Origin: Deltaproteobacteria bacterium
GTDB lineage: Bacteria > Desulfobacterota > Dissulfuribacteria > Dissulfuribacterales > QOAL01
Assembly: GCA_027003115.1 (NCBI GenBank)
Contig: JALWYS010000193.1
Span: 1-33,515 of the forward strand
Length of the DNA: 33,515 bases
Direction: 5' to 3'
Shown: positions 143 to 8,846 of the stretch, piece by piece
How the letters are laid out: each line of letters starts with the position of its first letter
Numbering within the stretch: position 1 is the stretch's first letter
Notes under the pieces: model-generated
Database searches by the model: none
Told to the model about the DNA's origin: nothing
What the model saw: only the letters and a program-made list of their open reading frames with translations
Translations under genes and position numbers: made by a program

Positions 143-910
143 TCAGTTGTCTTCGAACCTTACTATCCTGGCAAAGCTTTCAGGTTCAAGAGAAGCACCA
201 CCAACAAGTGCCCCGTCAACATCATCAAGCGACATAATGTCCTTGACGTTTGCCGGCTTGACCGAGCCACCATACAATATTCTCAGGTTTTCTGCAATAT
301 CTTCTCCTGCAAGTTCCCTTACCCTGTCACGAACAAGCCTGTGGGCCTCCTGTATCTGCTCAAGACTTGCCGTCTTGCCTGTTCCGATTGCCCAAACAGG
401 CTCGTAGGCAATAACTATTTTGTGAATATCAATGTTTTTTAATCCCTTCAGTCCCAACCTTATCTGGTTTTCAAGCACATGGGATGTTTCACCCGCCTCT
501 CTTTCGTCCAGTGTCTCCCCAATACAAAAGACAGGGGTCATCCCATGGGATATTGCAGAGCTGATCTTCTTGTTTATAAGTTCATCGTCTTCATGGAATA
601 TGTGGCGCCTTTCAGAATGACCAATTATCACGATATCTATCCCAATATCCAGAAGCATCCCTGGAGAAACCTCTCCAGTAAAGGCCCCCTCGTCCTGATA
701 AAACATGTTCTGGGCAGCCGCCTTTACGTTACTTCCATTTAGTAACTCTACCATTCGGTTAAGGCAGGTGTAGTTTGGTGCAAGCATAATGTCCCTGTCA
801 TCAATACCGGCCACAAGGCCAAGGAATGAAGAAAGATATTTCTCCATTTCCGACAAGGTTTTGTACATCTTCCAGTTTGCTGCAAGAAGTGGCCTTCTTT
901 TCTTCTCCAT
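143..910 (-). CDS. tpiA: Triosephosphate isomerase
   Basis: 255 aa; AANWKMYKT, IGHSERR, AYEPVWAIGTGKTA and LYGGSVKPAN motifs. Confidence 0.97.
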   Translation of the reverse strand: MEKKRRPLLAANWKMYKTLSEMEKYLSSFLGLVAGIDDRDIMLAPNYTCLNRMVELLNGSNVKAAAQNMFYQDEGAFTGEVSPGMLLDIGIDIVIIGHSERRHIFHEDDELINKKISSAISHGMTPVFCIGETLDEREAGETSHVLENQIRLGLKGLKNIDIHKIVIAYEPVWAIGTGKTASLEQIQEAHRLVRDRVRELAGEDIAENLRILYGGSVKPANVKDIMSLDDVDGALVGGASLEPESFARIVRFEDN

Positions 911-919
911 CCTGCCTCC

Positions 920-2119
920 TTATGAACCCTTGCCTGCACACTTTTCTAAGGCCTTAAACCCAGGTAGTTCCTTTCCTTCCAAAAGGGTCAAAAAGGCACC
1001 GCCACCCGTGGATATATAGGAAACATTGTCACTCTCTCCCGCCTTTTTGACTGCAGCACCAGTGTCCCCACCCCCTATTATGGAAAGGGCAGGGCTTGAT
1101 CCCACGGCACGCGCAATCTCAACGGTTCCTTTATCAAACGGCTCCGTTTCAAAGGCACCAACGGGCCCGTTCCAGACTATGGTCTTAGCCTTTTTTATCT
1201 CATCCCTGAAAAGGTCAATGGTCCTAGGACCTATGTCCACAATCATCATATCATCTGGCACCTGGTCAACTGAAACCTCCTTAAAGGATACTTCTGGACC
1301 AAGCTCCTCAGCTACCACAACATCCACCGGCAGGAAAAGGCCAGTGCCAGATTGCTTTGCCCTCTCCATTATCGCTTTTGCCGTCTCAACTAGGTCCTTC
1401 TCCACCAGAGACCTTCCCACGGAATATCCGCTGGCAAGCAGAAAGGTATTTGCCATGGCCCCGCCTATGAGAAGGCTATCTACCTTTGGAAGTATATTTT
1501 CTATTGCCCCGAGTTTACTCGATACCTTTGCCCCACCTAGAATGGCAAGAAACGGCCGCTCAGGCTTCTCCATGGCCTTTTCAAAATAGGTTATCTCGTT
1601 TTTCATAAGAAAACCCGCGCCACAAACGCTTACACGTTCAGGCACACCAACCACCGAGGCATGTGCCCTGTGGGAGACGGCAAAGGCATCGTTTACATAT
1701 ACGTCACAAAGAGATGCAAGGGAGGAGGCGAACTGAGGGTCATTTTGCGTCTCTTCCTTATGAAAACGCAGGTTTTCAAGCATCATTACCTGCCCTGACT
1801 CAAGACCATTGGCCATCTTTTCCACATCCGGGCCAATACAATCCGGGGCCATAAGGACCTTCTTTTCAAGTAACAAACCCAGCCTTTCGGCAACTGGAGC
1901 AAGACTGAATTCTGGCCTTTTTTCCCCTTTTGGCCTTCCGAGGTGAGAGGCCACAATGAGCCGAGCACCATTATCAATAGCGTATCTTACGGTGGGAAGC
2001 GCCGCCCTGATGCGATTGTCATCGGTGATCTCTAGTTTCTCATCAAGGGGCACGTTAAAATCCACCCTGAGAAACATCCTTTTACCGTCAAAGTCAAGCT
2101 CGTCTATGAACTTGATCAT
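920..2119 (-). CDS. pgk: Phosphoglycerate kinase
   Basis: 399 aa; RVDFNVPLD, ASHLGRPKG, AILGGAKVSSK and GGGDTGAAV motifs. Confidence 0.97.
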   Translation of the reverse strand: MIKFIDELDFDGKRMFLRVDFNVPLDEKLEITDDNRIRAALPTVRYAIDNGARLIVASHLGRPKGEKRPEFSLAPVAERLGLLLEKKVLMAPDCIGPDVEKMANGLESGQVMMLENLRFHKEETQNDPQFASSLASLCDVYVNDAFAVSHRAHASVVGVPERVSVCGAGFLMKNEITYFEKAMEKPERPFLAILGGAKVSSKLGAIENILPKVDSLLIGGAMANTFLLASGYSVGRSLVEKDLVETAKAIMERAKQSGTGLFLPVDVVVAEELGPEVSFKEVSVDQVPDDMMIVDIGPRTIDLFRDEIKKAKTIVWNGPVGAFETEPFDKGTVEIARAVGSSPALSIIGGGDTGAAVKKAGESDNVSYISTGGGAFLTLLEGKELPGFKALEKCAGKGS

Positions 2120-2142: not shown

Positions 2143-3393
2143 CTAAAGCATGGAATCAGCAATGGATGCGGTCCTCTCGCCAAGCATGTTTGTGTAACTA
2201 CCAAGCTCATTGTCGTACCATCCGTAGATAACCACCTGGGTTACCGGCACGCTTATGGTATCACAGATGATCTGGGTGGACTCATCCAGGCCCCTGCACG
2301 CCTTCCTCGGATCTATCTGAATGGCGGCAGTCCTGGTATGGGTCTCTGTGGCCTCTATTATGGCCGCAGCAGCAGGCATGCCGATAATGTCACTGGATAC
2401 GTGCTGGGTCTCCGTATAAAGAAGACGCCCCTTCATCGGCCCCTCTGCAGCGTTTTTGTAAATGGAATTTATGACGTTTCGATTGATGGGGTCCTCCAGG
2501 CTCTCATCATGAATGGTGAGAACAAGCACGATAAGAGAACCCGTGTTTGTGGGGACCCGTACCGACTCGGCAATGAAACCGATATTTTTCATCTCTGGAA
2601 TGACAAGGGCCAAGGCCTTTGCCGCCCCTGTAGTGGTAAGGATTATATTGTTGAATATACTCCTGTTTTTCCTCAAATCCTTTGCCCCTGTCTTTGGGAG
2701 CCTATCAAGAACTTGCTGACTTCCAGTTGCCGCATGAACCGTCACCATGGACGCAGAAAGAATGCGGTTTGCACCGAAATGATCAAGAATGGGCTTTACC
2801 ATGAAGGACAGACAGGTGGTGGTACAGGAGGCTGCAGAGATGAGCTTGTGTTTTTCTGGGATGTAGTCATCCTCGTTTATTCCCATAACTGTTGTTACGG
2901 CATCTTCCGGCATCTCAGCCGCCTTGTCCTTGATCTTAAAGGGTGCAGAAAGAATTACTTTTTCGGCCCCTGCCTCAATATGGCCCCTCAGGCTTCCCTT
3001 TGGATCATCGGGAGGGGCAGTAGGGTCCCTGAATACGCCAGTGGTATCCACAACAAGCTTTACGTCGTGCTCTGCCCAGTTTATCCCCCTTGGATCACGG
3101 CTCTCCCTCAAGATGGTGACAGGCACCCCGTCAACAGTCATGCGGCCAGTCTTTTCATCCAGATTCTCAACAACCCTCGGGCACTTGTACCCGTAAAGGT
3201 AACTTCCCAGCCTGCCATAAGTGCTGTCCATCTCAATGGCATGGGCGATATCGGCAAGACCCTGTCCCACCTGACGACCTATGTTGACAACTATTTCAGA
3301 AAAATCCTTCTTGCTTACGTGATACCATAAACTGAGCTTTCCTATTCTCCCAAGTCCATTAATACCGAGTTTCATGGGGCGGGCTTCAGACAT
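2143..3393 (-). CDS. Divergent glyceraldehyde-3-phosphate dehydrogenase (416 aa paralog)
   Basis: LGINGLGRIGKL N-terminal Rossmann motif, SAASCTTTCL catalytic-Cys region, TVHAATGSQ, C-terminal YDNELGSYTNM; upstream SD GGAGGAGG. Longer than and divergent from canonical GapA. Confidence 0.88.
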   Translation of the reverse strand: MSEARPMKLGINGLGRIGKLSLWYHVSKKDFSEIVVNIGRQVGQGLADIAHAIEMDSTYGRLGSYLYGYKCPRVVENLDEKTGRMTVDGVPVTILRESRDPRGINWAEHDVKLVVDTTGVFRDPTAPPDDPKGSLRGHIEAGAEKVILSAPFKIKDKAAEMPEDAVTTVMGINEDDYIPEKHKLISAASCTTTCLSFMVKPILDHFGANRILSASMVTVHAATGSQQVLDRLPKTGAKDLRKNRSIFNNIILTTTGAAKALALVIPEMKNIGFIAESVRVPTNTGSLIVLVLTIHDESLEDPINRNVINSIYKNAAEGPMKGRLLYTETQHVSSDIIGMPAAAAIIEATETHTRTAAIQIDPRKACRGLDESTQIICDTISVPVTQVVIYGWYDNELGSYTNMLGERTASIADSML

Positions 3394-3506: not shown

Positions 3507-6500
3507 TTAAATAAGGGCGCTGTCCTCCCCAGTCCTTACCGGATGCTTGCCCAAATAAACAAAGCCATTTCTCCCGTCAATGCTCACATAATCCCCAGAG
3601 CGAATAACATGACCATTTATCTCGGCCCTTCCTTCAAGCTCGTAGACCTTAAGCTGCTCACAGCCCACAACACATGTCTTGTCAAGCCTGAAAGCAACAA
3701 TTGATGCATGGGAGGTCTGCCCTCCCTTGGCCGTAAGTATGCCGTCAGCAGATGATATCTCCTTTATATCGTCTGGAACCGTATCGGACCTTATTAGGAT
3801 GAGCTTTGTTTGAGGCTCCTCTTTTCGTATGCGCTCTATCTCCTCCATGGTGAAGACGGCCTTGCCGCTGAGAGCGCCTCCGCTAACGCCGATACCCCTT
3901 CCAAGATACCTCTTTTCAAGCTCCTTGGATGGAGCAAAAAAAGCCACCTGTGTTCTTCGCTTTGTAACCATGTCCCTGGTCTGAAGAATGAAGAGGTCCT
4001 CAGCCTTTGGACCCTGAAAGGTGAACTCTATCTCTTGCGGGGTCCACTTCTTGTCAAAAATCAAATACCTGACCCATTTTAGAAGGGCCTCATAAATTTC
4101 AGGAAATCTCTTTTCAAGGCTTTCATCTACGCTCAGGCCAAGCTCCTCGCTCTGCTCAACGGATATGGGGCTCGTTGCCACAAGACCGCTGACTATATCT
4201 TCCCCCTGATTTCCAACCGTGTAGTCCCCCCAAAGGCTAACCCTGTCCAGCTTCTTGTATGGGTTTGCGGTAAAGAGAACCCCTGTCCCCGACTCGGCGG
4301 AGAGGTTTCCATAGGCCATGGCCTGAATAATTACTGCCGTGCCCCAATGGTCTGAAATTTCCATTATCTCCCTGTAGGCCTTGGCCTTTTCAGAATCCCA
4401 GGAATTAAGTACAAGCCTTATGGACATGAGAAGCTGCTCAAAAGGGTCATCCTCTATATGTACGCCCCTTGAGATGACGGCCTCCCTGTAGGCAAGGGCA
4501 AGCTCCTTCATCTGCTCCCCTGTAAACTGTCTCTTCTTCTCAACGTTGTACGTGGCCTTTTGGGCCTGCATAAGGGCGGTAAAGACCTCCCTTTCAAGGC
4601 CAAAGGACATGGCCCAGGACTGGACGAACCTGCGATAGTTGTCCCAGGCAAACCACTTGTTGCCATATTTCCTGGCAAGCCCTTCCGCTATCTCCAGGTT
4701 CATCCCCACGTTGATTACAGTGGACATCATGCCAGGCATGGAGATTGCCGCACCGCTTCTCACTGAAAGAAGAAGGGGATCGCCTGGGTCTCCAAAGCGC
4801 ATTCCTGAGCGCTCTTCCAGCTCGGCAAGGCCCTCCCGCACCTGCCTTTTAAAATTCTGATAGGCCCCCTTTAGCTTGTAAAAGAGGGAGTAGTACCTGA
4901 AGACCTCGGTGGTTACGATTATGGCAGGAGGGACTGGTATGCCAGCCTGTGCCAGAAGCAGGAGGTTGTACCCCTTGTTTCCAAGCTGTATGAGGTTGCC
5001 TGTCACCCGGTCTGGCTGATGAATGGAGCAAAGATCCTGCTCAGGGTCATAACTTAGTAACATGTCCAGCTCCCTCAGAGTTAGATACTCCCGCTGGCTG
5101 GACAAGGCCTGGTAGAGCCTGGCCACGAAATTATCCAGGTGCTGAAGGCCAAAGGTTGAAGAAATGAGCCTCCTCAGGAAGGCCTCTGAGACCTGATGCA
5201 CCACCTCCTGAATGGAGGCATCCTTTCTGATCATAGCCTTGTACTTTGGAAGTAGCTTATCAGGCCACAGCTGGCGGATGATCTTGTTCAGGTTTTCCTC
5301 GTGGGGGCTCAGGTAGTAGACGTAGATCATATCCTTTACACCCTCTGAAAGCCCCTTAACGATGTCGAGGTACTGGGTGAAGGAAAAACGCCTCACCCCC
5401 AGGGATTTTTCTAAAAGCGTAAGATATGTGGCAAACTTTTTGGAATAGACCCCATTTAACTGGACGGCCCTCCAGAGAAGCTTCAGATGACGAAGAAGAT
5501 TTACAAAGGTGGATCTGGTTATGAACGGGACCTCCACCTGGGCGATGAGACGCTCAAAAAAGAGATTTGCAAGGTTCTCGAGACGAAACGTAAGCCCCAG
5601 GGCGTCAAACTTCCTTTCGTGGTACTTGCCATACATGGAGGGGATGTCTGCAGCAATGTGGCGCTTGTGATATATGGTTTCCTGGACGTCGTACTTTTCC
5701 TTTGAAAGGATTATGTTTTTTAGCTCTTCTATCTCGTCCAGTATGACCTTAAGGGCATGCTCGTTGTCGTCTGAGTCTATCACCTCAAGCACCCTGTCCA
5801 TGCCCTCGAAACCAAGCTTCTTTGCCTCCTCAAGATTAAAACGTATCTCCTGGACCCCAAGGTTGTATTTCATGTATTCCAGGCGGTACATCTTTATAAG
5901 AAGCTCCACCCTGCGCTTTTCCTGGGGAGGCACGTCCCTTACCTCGTCAATGATCCGCCTTATCTCCTCTTCAGAAGAGCTTAGAAAGAGATGAACCTTT
6001 CTGGCAAAGGGTTCAAGACCAAGCCTTGAGGCAATGTGACGCACAATCTTGTGCACATGATCCACGTACGGGCCGTGGGGACTTATCTGCTCAAGTATTT
6101 CAGGAGGAAGAAACTGGGCTAGGCCCTCCTTTTGCCTGCTGTACCAAAAGCAGAAGATGGCCTCGATGAAATCTACTATGAGGTTGTTGCTTTCAACGTG
6201 ACTCTGTTTTCTTAGAAAATGAATGAGGATATCGCGTCTTTTGGATATTTCGTCAAGCTCTGTGGAGACGTCGCGTAGCAGACCTTCTGCGCCAATCTCA
6301 TTGAAGTAAACAGGGATTGAGCGGGCAAACTCCTTCACCAGGTTGTATATGGGCTCTATATCGCTATTTAACAACTTGGTGATGTCCCGCTGGAAAAGGT
6401 CCGTGTCCTTTATGCAGGTACCCCCTAACTGGAGGTTTATGGTAAGGGCGGAAAGAAGTGTGCTACAGACCTTTGGCTTCTGGCATACCAGGTCCAGCCA

Positions 6501-7790
6501 GGCCCTGATATTTTGCAGATGCGCCGGGTTTGAAAGGACATGCCACTCCGTATCAACGCCCTGGACCCCAGGGGTCTGGAAGCCAAAGGCAACCACCTGT
6601 TCAAGAAAAAGCTCAATGAGCCTGGTATTTTCCCTTTGAAGTATCTCTGTTCCAAGGGCATTTATGCATTGAAGGGCCGTCCTTGGAAACTGACCTATCT
6701 GCTGTTTAAGTAGTGCAAAGCTCTTGGGGATAATCTGTCTCAGCTCATCAAAATCTGCAGTCTTTACCAGGCAGACAAGATTCTTGTTGAGCTGGCGAAG
6801 GACTTCCTCGTGGATGATGTTAAGGCCCTCCATCTCCACCATGTGAAAAAGGAAAAGCAGATGGATGGAGATTCCGTCAACGTCCTTCCTCTTGCCCTTT
6901 TTGAAAGAAAGCCTGCAGGGTGCCTGCCCAAGGGCCTTTGCTATCTCTTTGTATCTTTTTACAACGTCCACGTGGCCCGGAAGTTCGGCAAGTGCCAGGG
7001 CAGCCTCCCTGGGATTATCCATTTTTTCTATCTCTTTGGTCCTTTCAATAAGGAGGGTCTTGAAGGTGGCGTGGCTGACAGGTTCAAGAAGCTTCATGAT
7101 GCGCTTGTAGTCCCCCTCATCTATCCAGAGGCCATACTGAGTGAGGCTCGATTTTAGCCACTTTTGCGGGCCATCCTGACTGAGCCAGTATTTGTAGGTT
7201 ATGCGCCTCACCTTTAGAAGGAGCTCCTTGCACCACTTCCATATGGGGTCGGTCTCAGGCACTTCCTTAAGCCTGCGGGCAAGATTTTTAACAAGCCGGG
7301 CCAGGGGATGAAAGCTCGTTGCTATGGCATAGGCCATGGAATCATCCACTGTTGAAAGCTCCCTCAGGACGCGTGAAAGGGCGGGAACGAGGCCGTGGAG
7401 CGTTTCATCATCTGCGGCCCTTGCTATCTTTTCCATGTAGGCAAGAAGGCCGTCGGCAGCCCTCTTCTTCTCCTTTTCCCTTGGAGCCTCCTTTATTAGC
7501 TTGAGAAAGGTGTCAAGGAGTATCTCGCATGCCTGGACTCCAAAGGGTGAACGGACGTAGGTGTTGAAATTCTTGAGGGAGAAGGACCTCAGATCATAAA
7601 CAAGGGCACCCCAGTTCTTAAAAGGATGGTGCAGCTCAAAAAGGAGGTAGTCTGCCTGTCTGAGTACCCCCTTGTACCCTTCCACTGCCTTCCTGAGCAC
7701 CTCGTACTTTTTCTCGATCTCTACCTGTTCAACCTGGGTCTCCTTCAGGTTGATCTCAAGGGCCTTTGATTGTGCTATGAGGCTTGTCAT
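3507..7790 (-). CDS. PPDK-like PEP/pyruvate-binding (ATP-grasp) + phosphohistidine swivel protein with very large N-terminal extension; no PEP-binding TIM barrel
   Basis: 1427 aa. From about residue 925: LIQLGNKGYNLLLLAQAGIPVPPAIIVTTE, DPLLLSVRSGAAISMPGMMSTVINVGMN, SGTGVLFTANP, IEFTFQGPKAEDLFILQTRD (PPDK ATP-grasp); GGQTSHASIVAFRLDKTCVVGCEQLKV (swivel His, codon at 3708-3710). The protein ends right after SIDGRNGFVYLGK. The N-terminal region was not recognised. Confidence 0.9.
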   Translation of the reverse strand: MTSLIAQSKALEINLKETQVEQVEIEKKYEVLRKAVEGYKGVLRQADYLLFELHHPFKNWGALVYDLRSFSLKNFNTYVRSPFGVQACEILLDTFLKLIKEAPREKEKKRAADGLLAYMEKIARAADDETLHGLVPALSRVLRELSTVDDSMAYAIATSFHPLARLVKNLARRLKEVPETDPIWKWCKELLLKVRRITYKYWLSQDGPQKWLKSSLTQYGLWIDEGDYKRIMKLLEPVSHATFKTLLIERTKEIEKMDNPREAALALAELPGHVDVVKRYKEIAKALGQAPCRLSFKKGKRKDVDGISIHLLFLFHMVEMEGLNIIHEEVLRQLNKNLVCLVKTADFDELRQIIPKSFALLKQQIGQFPRTALQCINALGTEILQRENTRLIELFLEQVVAFGFQTPGVQGVDTEWHVLSNPAHLQNIRAWLDLVCQKPKVCSTLLSALTINLQLGGTCIKDTDLFQRDITKLLNSDIEPIYNLVKEFARSIPVYFNEIGAEGLLRDVSTELDEISKRRDILIHFLRKQSHVESNNLIVDFIEAIFCFWYSRQKEGLAQFLPPEILEQISPHGPYVDHVHKIVRHIASRLGLEPFARKVHLFLSSSEEEIRRIIDEVRDVPPQEKRRVELLIKMYRLEYMKYNLGVQEIRFNLEEAKKLGFEGMDRVLEVIDSDDNEHALKVILDEIEELKNIILSKEKYDVQETIYHKRHIAADIPSMYGKYHERKFDALGLTFRLENLANLFFERLIAQVEVPFITRSTFVNLLRHLKLLWRAVQLNGVYSKKFATYLTLLEKSLGVRRFSFTQYLDIVKGLSEGVKDMIYVYYLSPHEENLNKIIRQLWPDKLLPKYKAMIRKDASIQEVVHQVSEAFLRRLISSTFGLQHLDNFVARLYQALSSQREYLTLRELDMLLSYDPEQDLCSIHQPDRVTGNLIQLGNKGYNLLLLAQAGIPVPPAIIVTTEVFRYYSLFYKLKGAYQNFKRQVREGLAELEERSGMRFGDPGDPLLLSVRSGAAISMPGMMSTVINVGMNLEIAEGLARKYGNKWFAWDNYRRFVQSWAMSFGLEREVFTALMQAQKATYNVEKKRQFTGEQMKELALAYREAVISRGVHIEDDPFEQLLMSIRLVLNSWDSEKAKAYREIMEISDHWGTAVIIQAMAYGNLSAESGTGVLFTANPYKKLDRVSLWGDYTVGNQGEDIVSGLVATSPISVEQSEELGLSVDESLEKRFPEIYEALLKWVRYLIFDKKWTPQEIEFTFQGPKAEDLFILQTRDMVTKRRTQVAFFAPSKELEKRYLGRGIGVSGGALSGKAVFTMEEIERIRKEEPQTKLILIRSDTVPDDIKEISSADGILTAKGGQTSHASIVAFRLDKTCVVGCEQLKVYELEGRAEINGHVIRSGDYVSIDGRNGFVYLGKHPVRTGEDSALI

Positions 7791-7793
7791 AAC

Positions 7794-8846
<1,053 letters not shown>

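Follow-up and report, generated by a model that had tools for sequence, protein, structure and literature searches.

We describe here a gene for an unusual phosphotransferase, which we call PPDKL, in a stretch of 33,515 nucleotides from a Deltaproteobacteria bacterium of the order Dissulfuribacterales (contig JALWYS010000193.1 of assembly GCA_027003115.1; hereafter the window). PPDKL combines the ATP-grasp and swivel domains of pyruvate phosphate dikinase (PPDK) with a long helical N-terminal region, lacks the phosphoenolpyruvate (PEP)/pyruvate barrel, and, in the Desulfobacterota genomes sampled, occurs strictly together with a divergent glyceraldehyde-3-phosphate dehydrogenase (GAPDH), GapX. 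Its domain make-up, invariant catalytic residues, missing barrel and co-occurrence with GapX are well supported, and we consider it very probable that PPDKL is an active phosphotransferase of the phosphohistidine type, with a tie to GapX. The map of central sugar metabolism is regarded as complete, and the pair would point to an undescribed reaction or an undescribed control point within it.

A PPDK-like phosphotransfer unit that ends after the swivel domain

The first-pass annotation of the window had placed an open reading frame at positions 3,507 to 7,790. The frame is real and lies on the minus strand, with its ATG at 7790 and its stop at 3507, and encodes 1427 amino acids. Pfam recognized two domains in the product, PPDK_N (residues 936-1217, 1.4e-27) and the PEP-utilizers mobile His domain (residues 1329-1409, 6.3e-18), and no others. 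In a search of the PDB, residues 936-1415 aligned with residues 18-508 of the 873-aa PPDK in entry 1kbl (1.2e-82), the enzyme of Clostridium symbiosum, and the alignment stopped there. Pfam, the equivalog models and the PDB alignment all show the ATP-grasp and swivel domains as contiguous, and the protein ends 12 residues past the swivel domain. This end is not a truncation artefact, as full-length relatives share it. The first reading of the C-terminal third as PPDK-like with nothing of the barrel after the swivel was thus borne out, and every PPDK motif that it quoted is present. PPDKL scored 380 bits against the PPDK equivalog model, whose cut-off is 843, and 26 bits against the model for rifampin phosphotransferase (RPH), whose cut-off is 999.

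An alignment of 105 PPDKL members showed that K939, R1011, E1255, Q1270, R1272, T1359 and H1361 are invariant. These positions correspond to K22, R92, E323, Q335, R337, T453 and H455 of C. symbiosum PPDK, to which we ascribe roles in autophosphorylation. Because all seven checked residues are invariant, the earlier suggestion that the protein can form a phosphohistidine from ATP is well supported, and PPDKL should still autophosphorylate.

A maximum-likelihood tree was calculated from the ATP-grasp and swivel domains, with PEP synthase as the root. PPDKL and a distant cousin formed one branch (support 100/98) beside canonical PPDK (93/91), and PPDKL without the cousin formed a branch with support of 57/83. 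PEP synthase, which has the same two-domain phosphotransfer unit together with the barrel that PPDKL lacks, formed a separate clade. The first-pass annotation had proposed a comparison that also included RPH and glucan water dikinase; our tree covers the PPDK and PEP synthase part of it, with PPDKL as the sister of PPDK.

The PEP/pyruvate barrel is absent from PPDKL and its surroundings

We searched for the PEP/pyruvate TIM barrel (PF02896) in sets of 60 and 80 genomes that share G055 and G059 (138-139 distinct genomes, 139 by count). No barrel was present in PPDKL, including as a cryptic domain of the N-terminal region, in the adjoining genes, or as a free-standing protein in the genomes searched, in agreement with the first reading that PPDKL has no classical pyruvate site. 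All barrel matches lay in frames of the size of Enzyme I (∼600 aa), PEP synthase (∼820 aa) or PPDK (∼920 aa), or in contig-end fragments. Three related, complete or near-complete genomes with PPDKL (G059, G148 and G191) encode no PEP-barrel protein at all. For the genomes searched, a barrel supplied in trans is ruled out.

These three genomes speak for another possibility, namely that the helical core serves as a non-homologous pyruvate site and that PPDKL has retained the interconversion of pyruvate and PEP; G059 lacks pyruvate kinase as well. We regard this function as very unlikely, however, since 77 of the 80 PPDKL genomes have at least one canonical PEP-barrel enzyme (Enzyme I, PEP synthase or PPDK) and since PPDKL is tied to a GAPDH rather than to pyruvate enzymes. 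The source genome itself encodes a true PEP synthase elsewhere (G000:C82). G059 is a single contig of 2.77 Mb in which HPr and Enzyme I were not found either, and the three barrel-free genomes raise the question of how pyruvate and PEP are interconverted in them.

The N-terminal region is helical and matches no known family

Residues 1-930 gave no match in Pfam as a single sequence, even at E=10, and member-by-member searches of the helical core with 66 sequences returned scattered chance matches only. A profile search of the region against PDB chains found nothing. AlphaFold predicted a confident all-helical model (mean predicted local distance difference test, pLDDT, of 84) with a single beta hairpin near residues 703-724, in line with the helical character suspected at first. 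The core (residues 396-775), folded alone, reached a pLDDT of 84.6 and a predicted template modelling (pTM) score of 0.78. Foldseek found no fold related to this core (best E 1.4), and for the whole region returned a very weak resemblance to karyopherin-like, HEAT-type solenoids (TM score about 0.14). Hence, neither the family search nor the structure search that had been suggested for this region yielded a match that could be used.

Conservation within the region peaks in two strips, residues 458-534 and 700-745, where many Asp, Arg, Lys, His and Glu residues are invariant. Some 20 charged or polar residues of the core are invariant, and the invariant or near-invariant charged positions include R506, R527, K528, H531, E533, K709, R710, H711, E725 and K727. 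A core rich in invariant Arg, Lys, His and Glu suits an anionic ligand, and from its conservation and strongly cationic character we infer that it may be the acceptor-binding site.

PPDKL and GapX occur in the same genomes

The gapX gene is located directly downstream of the PPDKL gene, and GapX proteins of relatives have about 406-463 amino acids. We searched 394 Desulfobacterota genomes with a profile of the N-terminal region and obtained matches in 131, namely 128 proper PPDKL members (about a third of the sample) and 3 weak matches to the distant cousin. A GapX profile found exactly 128 of the 394 genomes, and these were the same 128 and no others. The Fisher's exact p value of about 3e-107 overstates the association because it ignores the relatedness of the genomes. 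Both presence states occur in families f12, f20, f43, f58 and f63, and PPDKL and GapX agree in every genome of these families. The two genes lie within 8 kb of each other in 96 genomes; among the 32 pairs scored as unlinked, some are contig breaks, the pair of G312 probably adjoins across the start of a circular record, and those of G059, G211 and G398 are clearly separate.

GapX has kept the catalytic Cys and His and both Pfam domains of GAPDH, and scores 335 against the type I GAPDH equivalog model (cut-off 367). In place of the NAD-selecting Asp, GapX has an invariant Asn-x-Gly-Arg motif, a sign that it may use NADP(H), the anabolic cofactor. In four genomes with an estimated completeness of 100% (G074, G109, G238 and G419), GapX is the sole GAPDH, being the only protein with a Gp_dh_C domain. 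This suggests that GapX may have GAPDH activity; in these genomes it presumably serves gluconeogenesis, and GapA, the ordinary GAPDH encoded upstream of PPDKL, is the dispensable neighbour and GapX the constant one. In G023, gapX and the gene for phosphoglycerate kinase (PGK) are seemingly duplicated (C1:505476-507924 and 1777503-1779951), with identical scores.

A possible role in gluconeogenesis

The strict tie to an anabolic-looking GAPDH favours 3-phosphoglycerate as the acceptor. We tentatively propose that PPDKL converts it to 1,3-bisphosphoglycerate for GapX, a reaction that is possible but short of probable. More doubtful is the full version, a hitherto undescribed gluconeogenic pair in which PPDKL, as a 3-phosphoglycerate dikinase powered by ATP and with a helical acceptor domain of a new fold, passes the labile 1,3-bisphosphoglycerate straight to its dedicated GAPDH, which probably uses NADPH. 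PPDKL would autophosphorylate its swivel His1361 from ATP, releasing AMP and pyrophosphate (PPi) or Pi; the swivel domain would then carry the phosphate to 3-phosphoglycerate bound in the helical core (residues about 396-775), and the resulting 1,3-bisphosphoglycerate would be handed to GapX and reduced to glyceraldehyde-3-phosphate. Such an energy-boosted gluconeogenic route would be parallel to PGK, as PEP synthase parallels pyruvate kinase, and with PGK retained almost everywhere it would not be a replacement. With two phosphoanhydride bonds spent, a span that runs uphill in gluconeogenesis when PGK carries it would be driven, and PEP synthase has this effect at an earlier stage of the pathway; the transfer from phosphohistidine to an acyl phosphate has a precedent in succinyl-CoA synthetase. 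If the full version is true, anaerobes engaged mostly in sugar synthesis would have turned the PGK/GAPDH span, normally reversible, into a driven step.

Several observations weigh against a 3-phosphoglycerate dikinase. PGK is kept in nearly all PPDKL genomes and no genome shows PPDKL replacing it, and nothing in the predicted PPDKL structure identifies 3-phosphoglycerate. The presence and absence of the genes are phylogenetically structured, so that 128 of 128 represents far fewer than 128 independent events. The distant cousin is encoded in an operon with a sigma-54 activator, in genomes without GapX. Finally, VadK (Rv1127c) of Mycobacterium tuberculosis shows that a barrel-less PPDK can have a regulatory role, binding metabolic enzymes, instead of being a metabolite kinase (PMC13400623).

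A close rival is that PPDKL regulates GapX as a kinase or scaffold. GapX would dock on the helical region, and the phosphorylation state of His1361, as a read-out of ATP versus AMP and PPi, would control the activity or assembly of GapX, much as proposed for VadK and the methylcitrate enzymes. VadK, like PPDKL, is derived from PPDK, barrel-less and ends after the His domain; it autophosphorylates and interacts with the methylcitrate enzymes encoded next to it (PMC13400623), and the PPDKL gene likewise lies beside genes for metabolic enzymes. A strict one-to-one pairing with a single type of GAPDH is what a dedicated protein partner would show, the nearest fold likeness of the N-terminal region in the PDB is to protein-binding solenoids, and the cousin genes adjoin a regulator gene. 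However, the likeness to HEAT proteins is too weak for homology, and the conservation of the N-terminal core resembles that of an active site, beyond what a docking surface would need. VadK also differs in being about 50 kDa in size, in having no helical N-terminal region, in its occurrence in mycobacteria and related actinomycetes, and in its link to the methylcitrate cycle instead of a GAPDH. We judge a regulatory role to be conceivable, on the unlikely side.

The evidence for phosphotransfer and from gene context that speaks for 3-phosphoglycerate applies equally to other small acceptors of the three-carbon trunk, such as glycerate, glyceraldehyde or dihydroxyacetone, whose product would feed GapX. 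We consider these rather improbable, as no matching catabolic gene recurs beside PPDKL and its constant neighbours are ordinary trunk enzymes.

Comparison with known swivel enzymes

PPDKL has the same ATP-grasp/swivel order as PPDK, with 930 extra N-terminal residues in place of a barrel. RPH is built in the order ATP-grasp, acceptor domain, His; in contrast, the unrelated helical region of PPDKL is N-terminal and nothing of its kind lies between the ATP-grasp and His domains. RPH and the HpeHI-type dikinases have in common with PPDKL that an ATP-grasp domain and a swivel His are combined with an acceptor domain other than the barrel (PMC4844700, PMC12167813). Barrel-less PPDK derivatives are already known from VadK, and RPH and HpeHI are known swivel kinases with acceptor domains of other kinds. 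In the literature searched we found no description of the helical region of 930 aa, of the obligate pairing with a GAPDH or of how PPDKL is distributed. The same literature contained no family with the architecture of PPDKL and no phosphoglycerate dikinase; a characterized family of this architecture had been named at first as a finding that would refute the first reading, and VadK, which is characterized and barrel-less, is without the helical region. PPDKL would add a new type of acceptor domain to the phosphohistidine swivel enzymes, and is a second case, beside VadK, of a PPDK relative without the barrel that has taken a new job. Its significance would grow should the acceptor turn out to be a metabolite.

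Gene neighbourhood

The features of the window are listed in Table 1. In the order of the source genome and in Thermodesulfobacteria, the typical operon is (EIIA-Man)-RimI-GapA-PPDKL-GapX-PGK-TPI-SecG, where TPI is triosephosphate isomerase. In many Desulfobulbaceae the cluster is split into AroC-GlgA-GapA-PPDKL and GapX(-RimI)-PGK-TPI. This setting is that of the lower trunk of gluconeogenesis and has a link to glycogen as well.

Table 1. PPDKL, its domains and neighbouring genes in the window
Feature	Coordinates	Strand	Evidence
PPDKL, 1427-aa barrel-less PPDK-like phosphotransferase	3507..7790	minus	Open reading frame, Pfam, PDB search, relatives
All-helical N-terminal region, residues 1-930, no known family or fold	5001..7790	minus	Pfam, PDB profile, AlphaFold, Foldseek
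Conserved helical core, residues 396-775, proposed acceptor site	5466..6605	minus	AlphaFold; no PDB fold match
Most conserved strip, residues 458-534 (DTDL...LLN...IGAEG.LR...T..DE...R.D.L.HFLRKQ.HVES)	6189..6419	minus	Alignment
Conserved beta-hairpin segment, residues 700-745 (E.IY.KRH....IPS.YG.Y.E.KF)	5556..5693	minus	Alignment, AlphaFold
PPDK-type ATP-grasp domain, residues 936-1276	3963..4985	minus	Pfam, PDB match; K939, R1011, E1255, Q1270, R1272 invariant
Swivel (phosphohistidine) domain, residues 1294-1415; His1361 codon 3708-3710	3546..3911	minus	Pfam, PDB match, alignment
GapX, divergent 416-aa GAPDH, obligate partner	2143..3393	minus	Catalytic Cys190/His220 kept; NAD-selecting Asp replaced, invariant Asn-x-Gly-Arg
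GapA, ordinary type I GAPDH, directly upstream of PPDKL	7794..8807	minus	Model match, context
PGK	920..2119	minus	Model match, context
TPI	143..910	minus	Sequence, context
RimI-type acetyltransferase	8847-9302		Gene recurs beside the cluster

The GlgA-type gene, which resembles starch/glycogen synthases and lies upstream in many Desulfobulbaceae, would fit a bacterial glucan dikinase with glycogen as its substrate, in the way that starch is the substrate of glucan water dikinase. In glucan water dikinase the His domain precedes the ATP-binding domain, and PPDKL has the reverse order; Pfam found no carbohydrate-binding module in PPDKL, a further trait of the starch enzyme. Moreover, in most other groups GlgA is not in the operon, whereas GapX is always in the genome, and we consider a glucan dikinase highly improbable. 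Two further candidates were rejected. A stand-in for Enzyme I of the phosphotransferase system, serving the orphan-looking upstream EIIA proteins, is ruled out because the genome encodes HPr and Enzyme I at other sites, and compensation for a missing pyruvate kinase, phosphofructokinase or PGK is ruled out as a general account because most genomes have these enzymes. The RimI-type gene sometimes adjoins gapX where the cluster is split (L144, L147, L179 and L180).

Distribution and integrity of the family

The PPDKL family is old, common and intact. Among 60 relatives, 58 had a match at E<=0.001, a few of which are canonical PPDK or contig-end fragments. Full-length orthologues have open frames of about 1400-1500 aa, and PPDKL is full length throughout the order of the source genome, contig ends apart. 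A scan of genome contigs gave at least 557 related loci. The best 80 of these include Thermosulfurimonas dismutans, Desulfobulbus elongatus, Desulfocicer vacuolatum and the cable bacteria Electrothrix and Electronema; where the records of these 80 name a lineage within the phylum, it is Desulfobacterota (formerly Deltaproteobacteria), and a few are named only as Proteobacteria. The N-terminal region is essentially always fused to the PPDK part, the exceptions being contig ends and broken copies. Where we checked, PPDKL is misannotated as PEP synthase, as in Dissulfurimicrobium (LGS26_08520); in the genome paper of Dissulfurimicrobium hydrothermale this gene, whose number falls between those of two GAPDH genes, is listed as a PEP synthase.

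The distant cousin is found in three large Desulfobacterota genomes of family f64 (L141:3573-9829, L142 and L143) and has 26-28% identity. It retains part of the N-terminal core, and its swivel motif is altered with the His kept. The gene adjoins one for a GAF/sigma-54 activator of ∼592 aa, with an overlap of 4 bases in L141, and the GapX profile found no GapX in these genomes.

Two broken PPDKL copies were observed, one with a frameshift of a single base within a run of A, which may be an assembly error (L144:6932-11099, in G109), and one with an in-frame TAA (G305:C9:32211-34944). Several genomes of family f2, from the same order as the source genome, contain a second PPDKL paralogue of about 42% identity that adjoins gapX (L025, L026, L027 and L028), and in the f2 genomes examined (L035 and L036) the main PPDKL copy is located beside the GapA and PGK genes, without gapX there.

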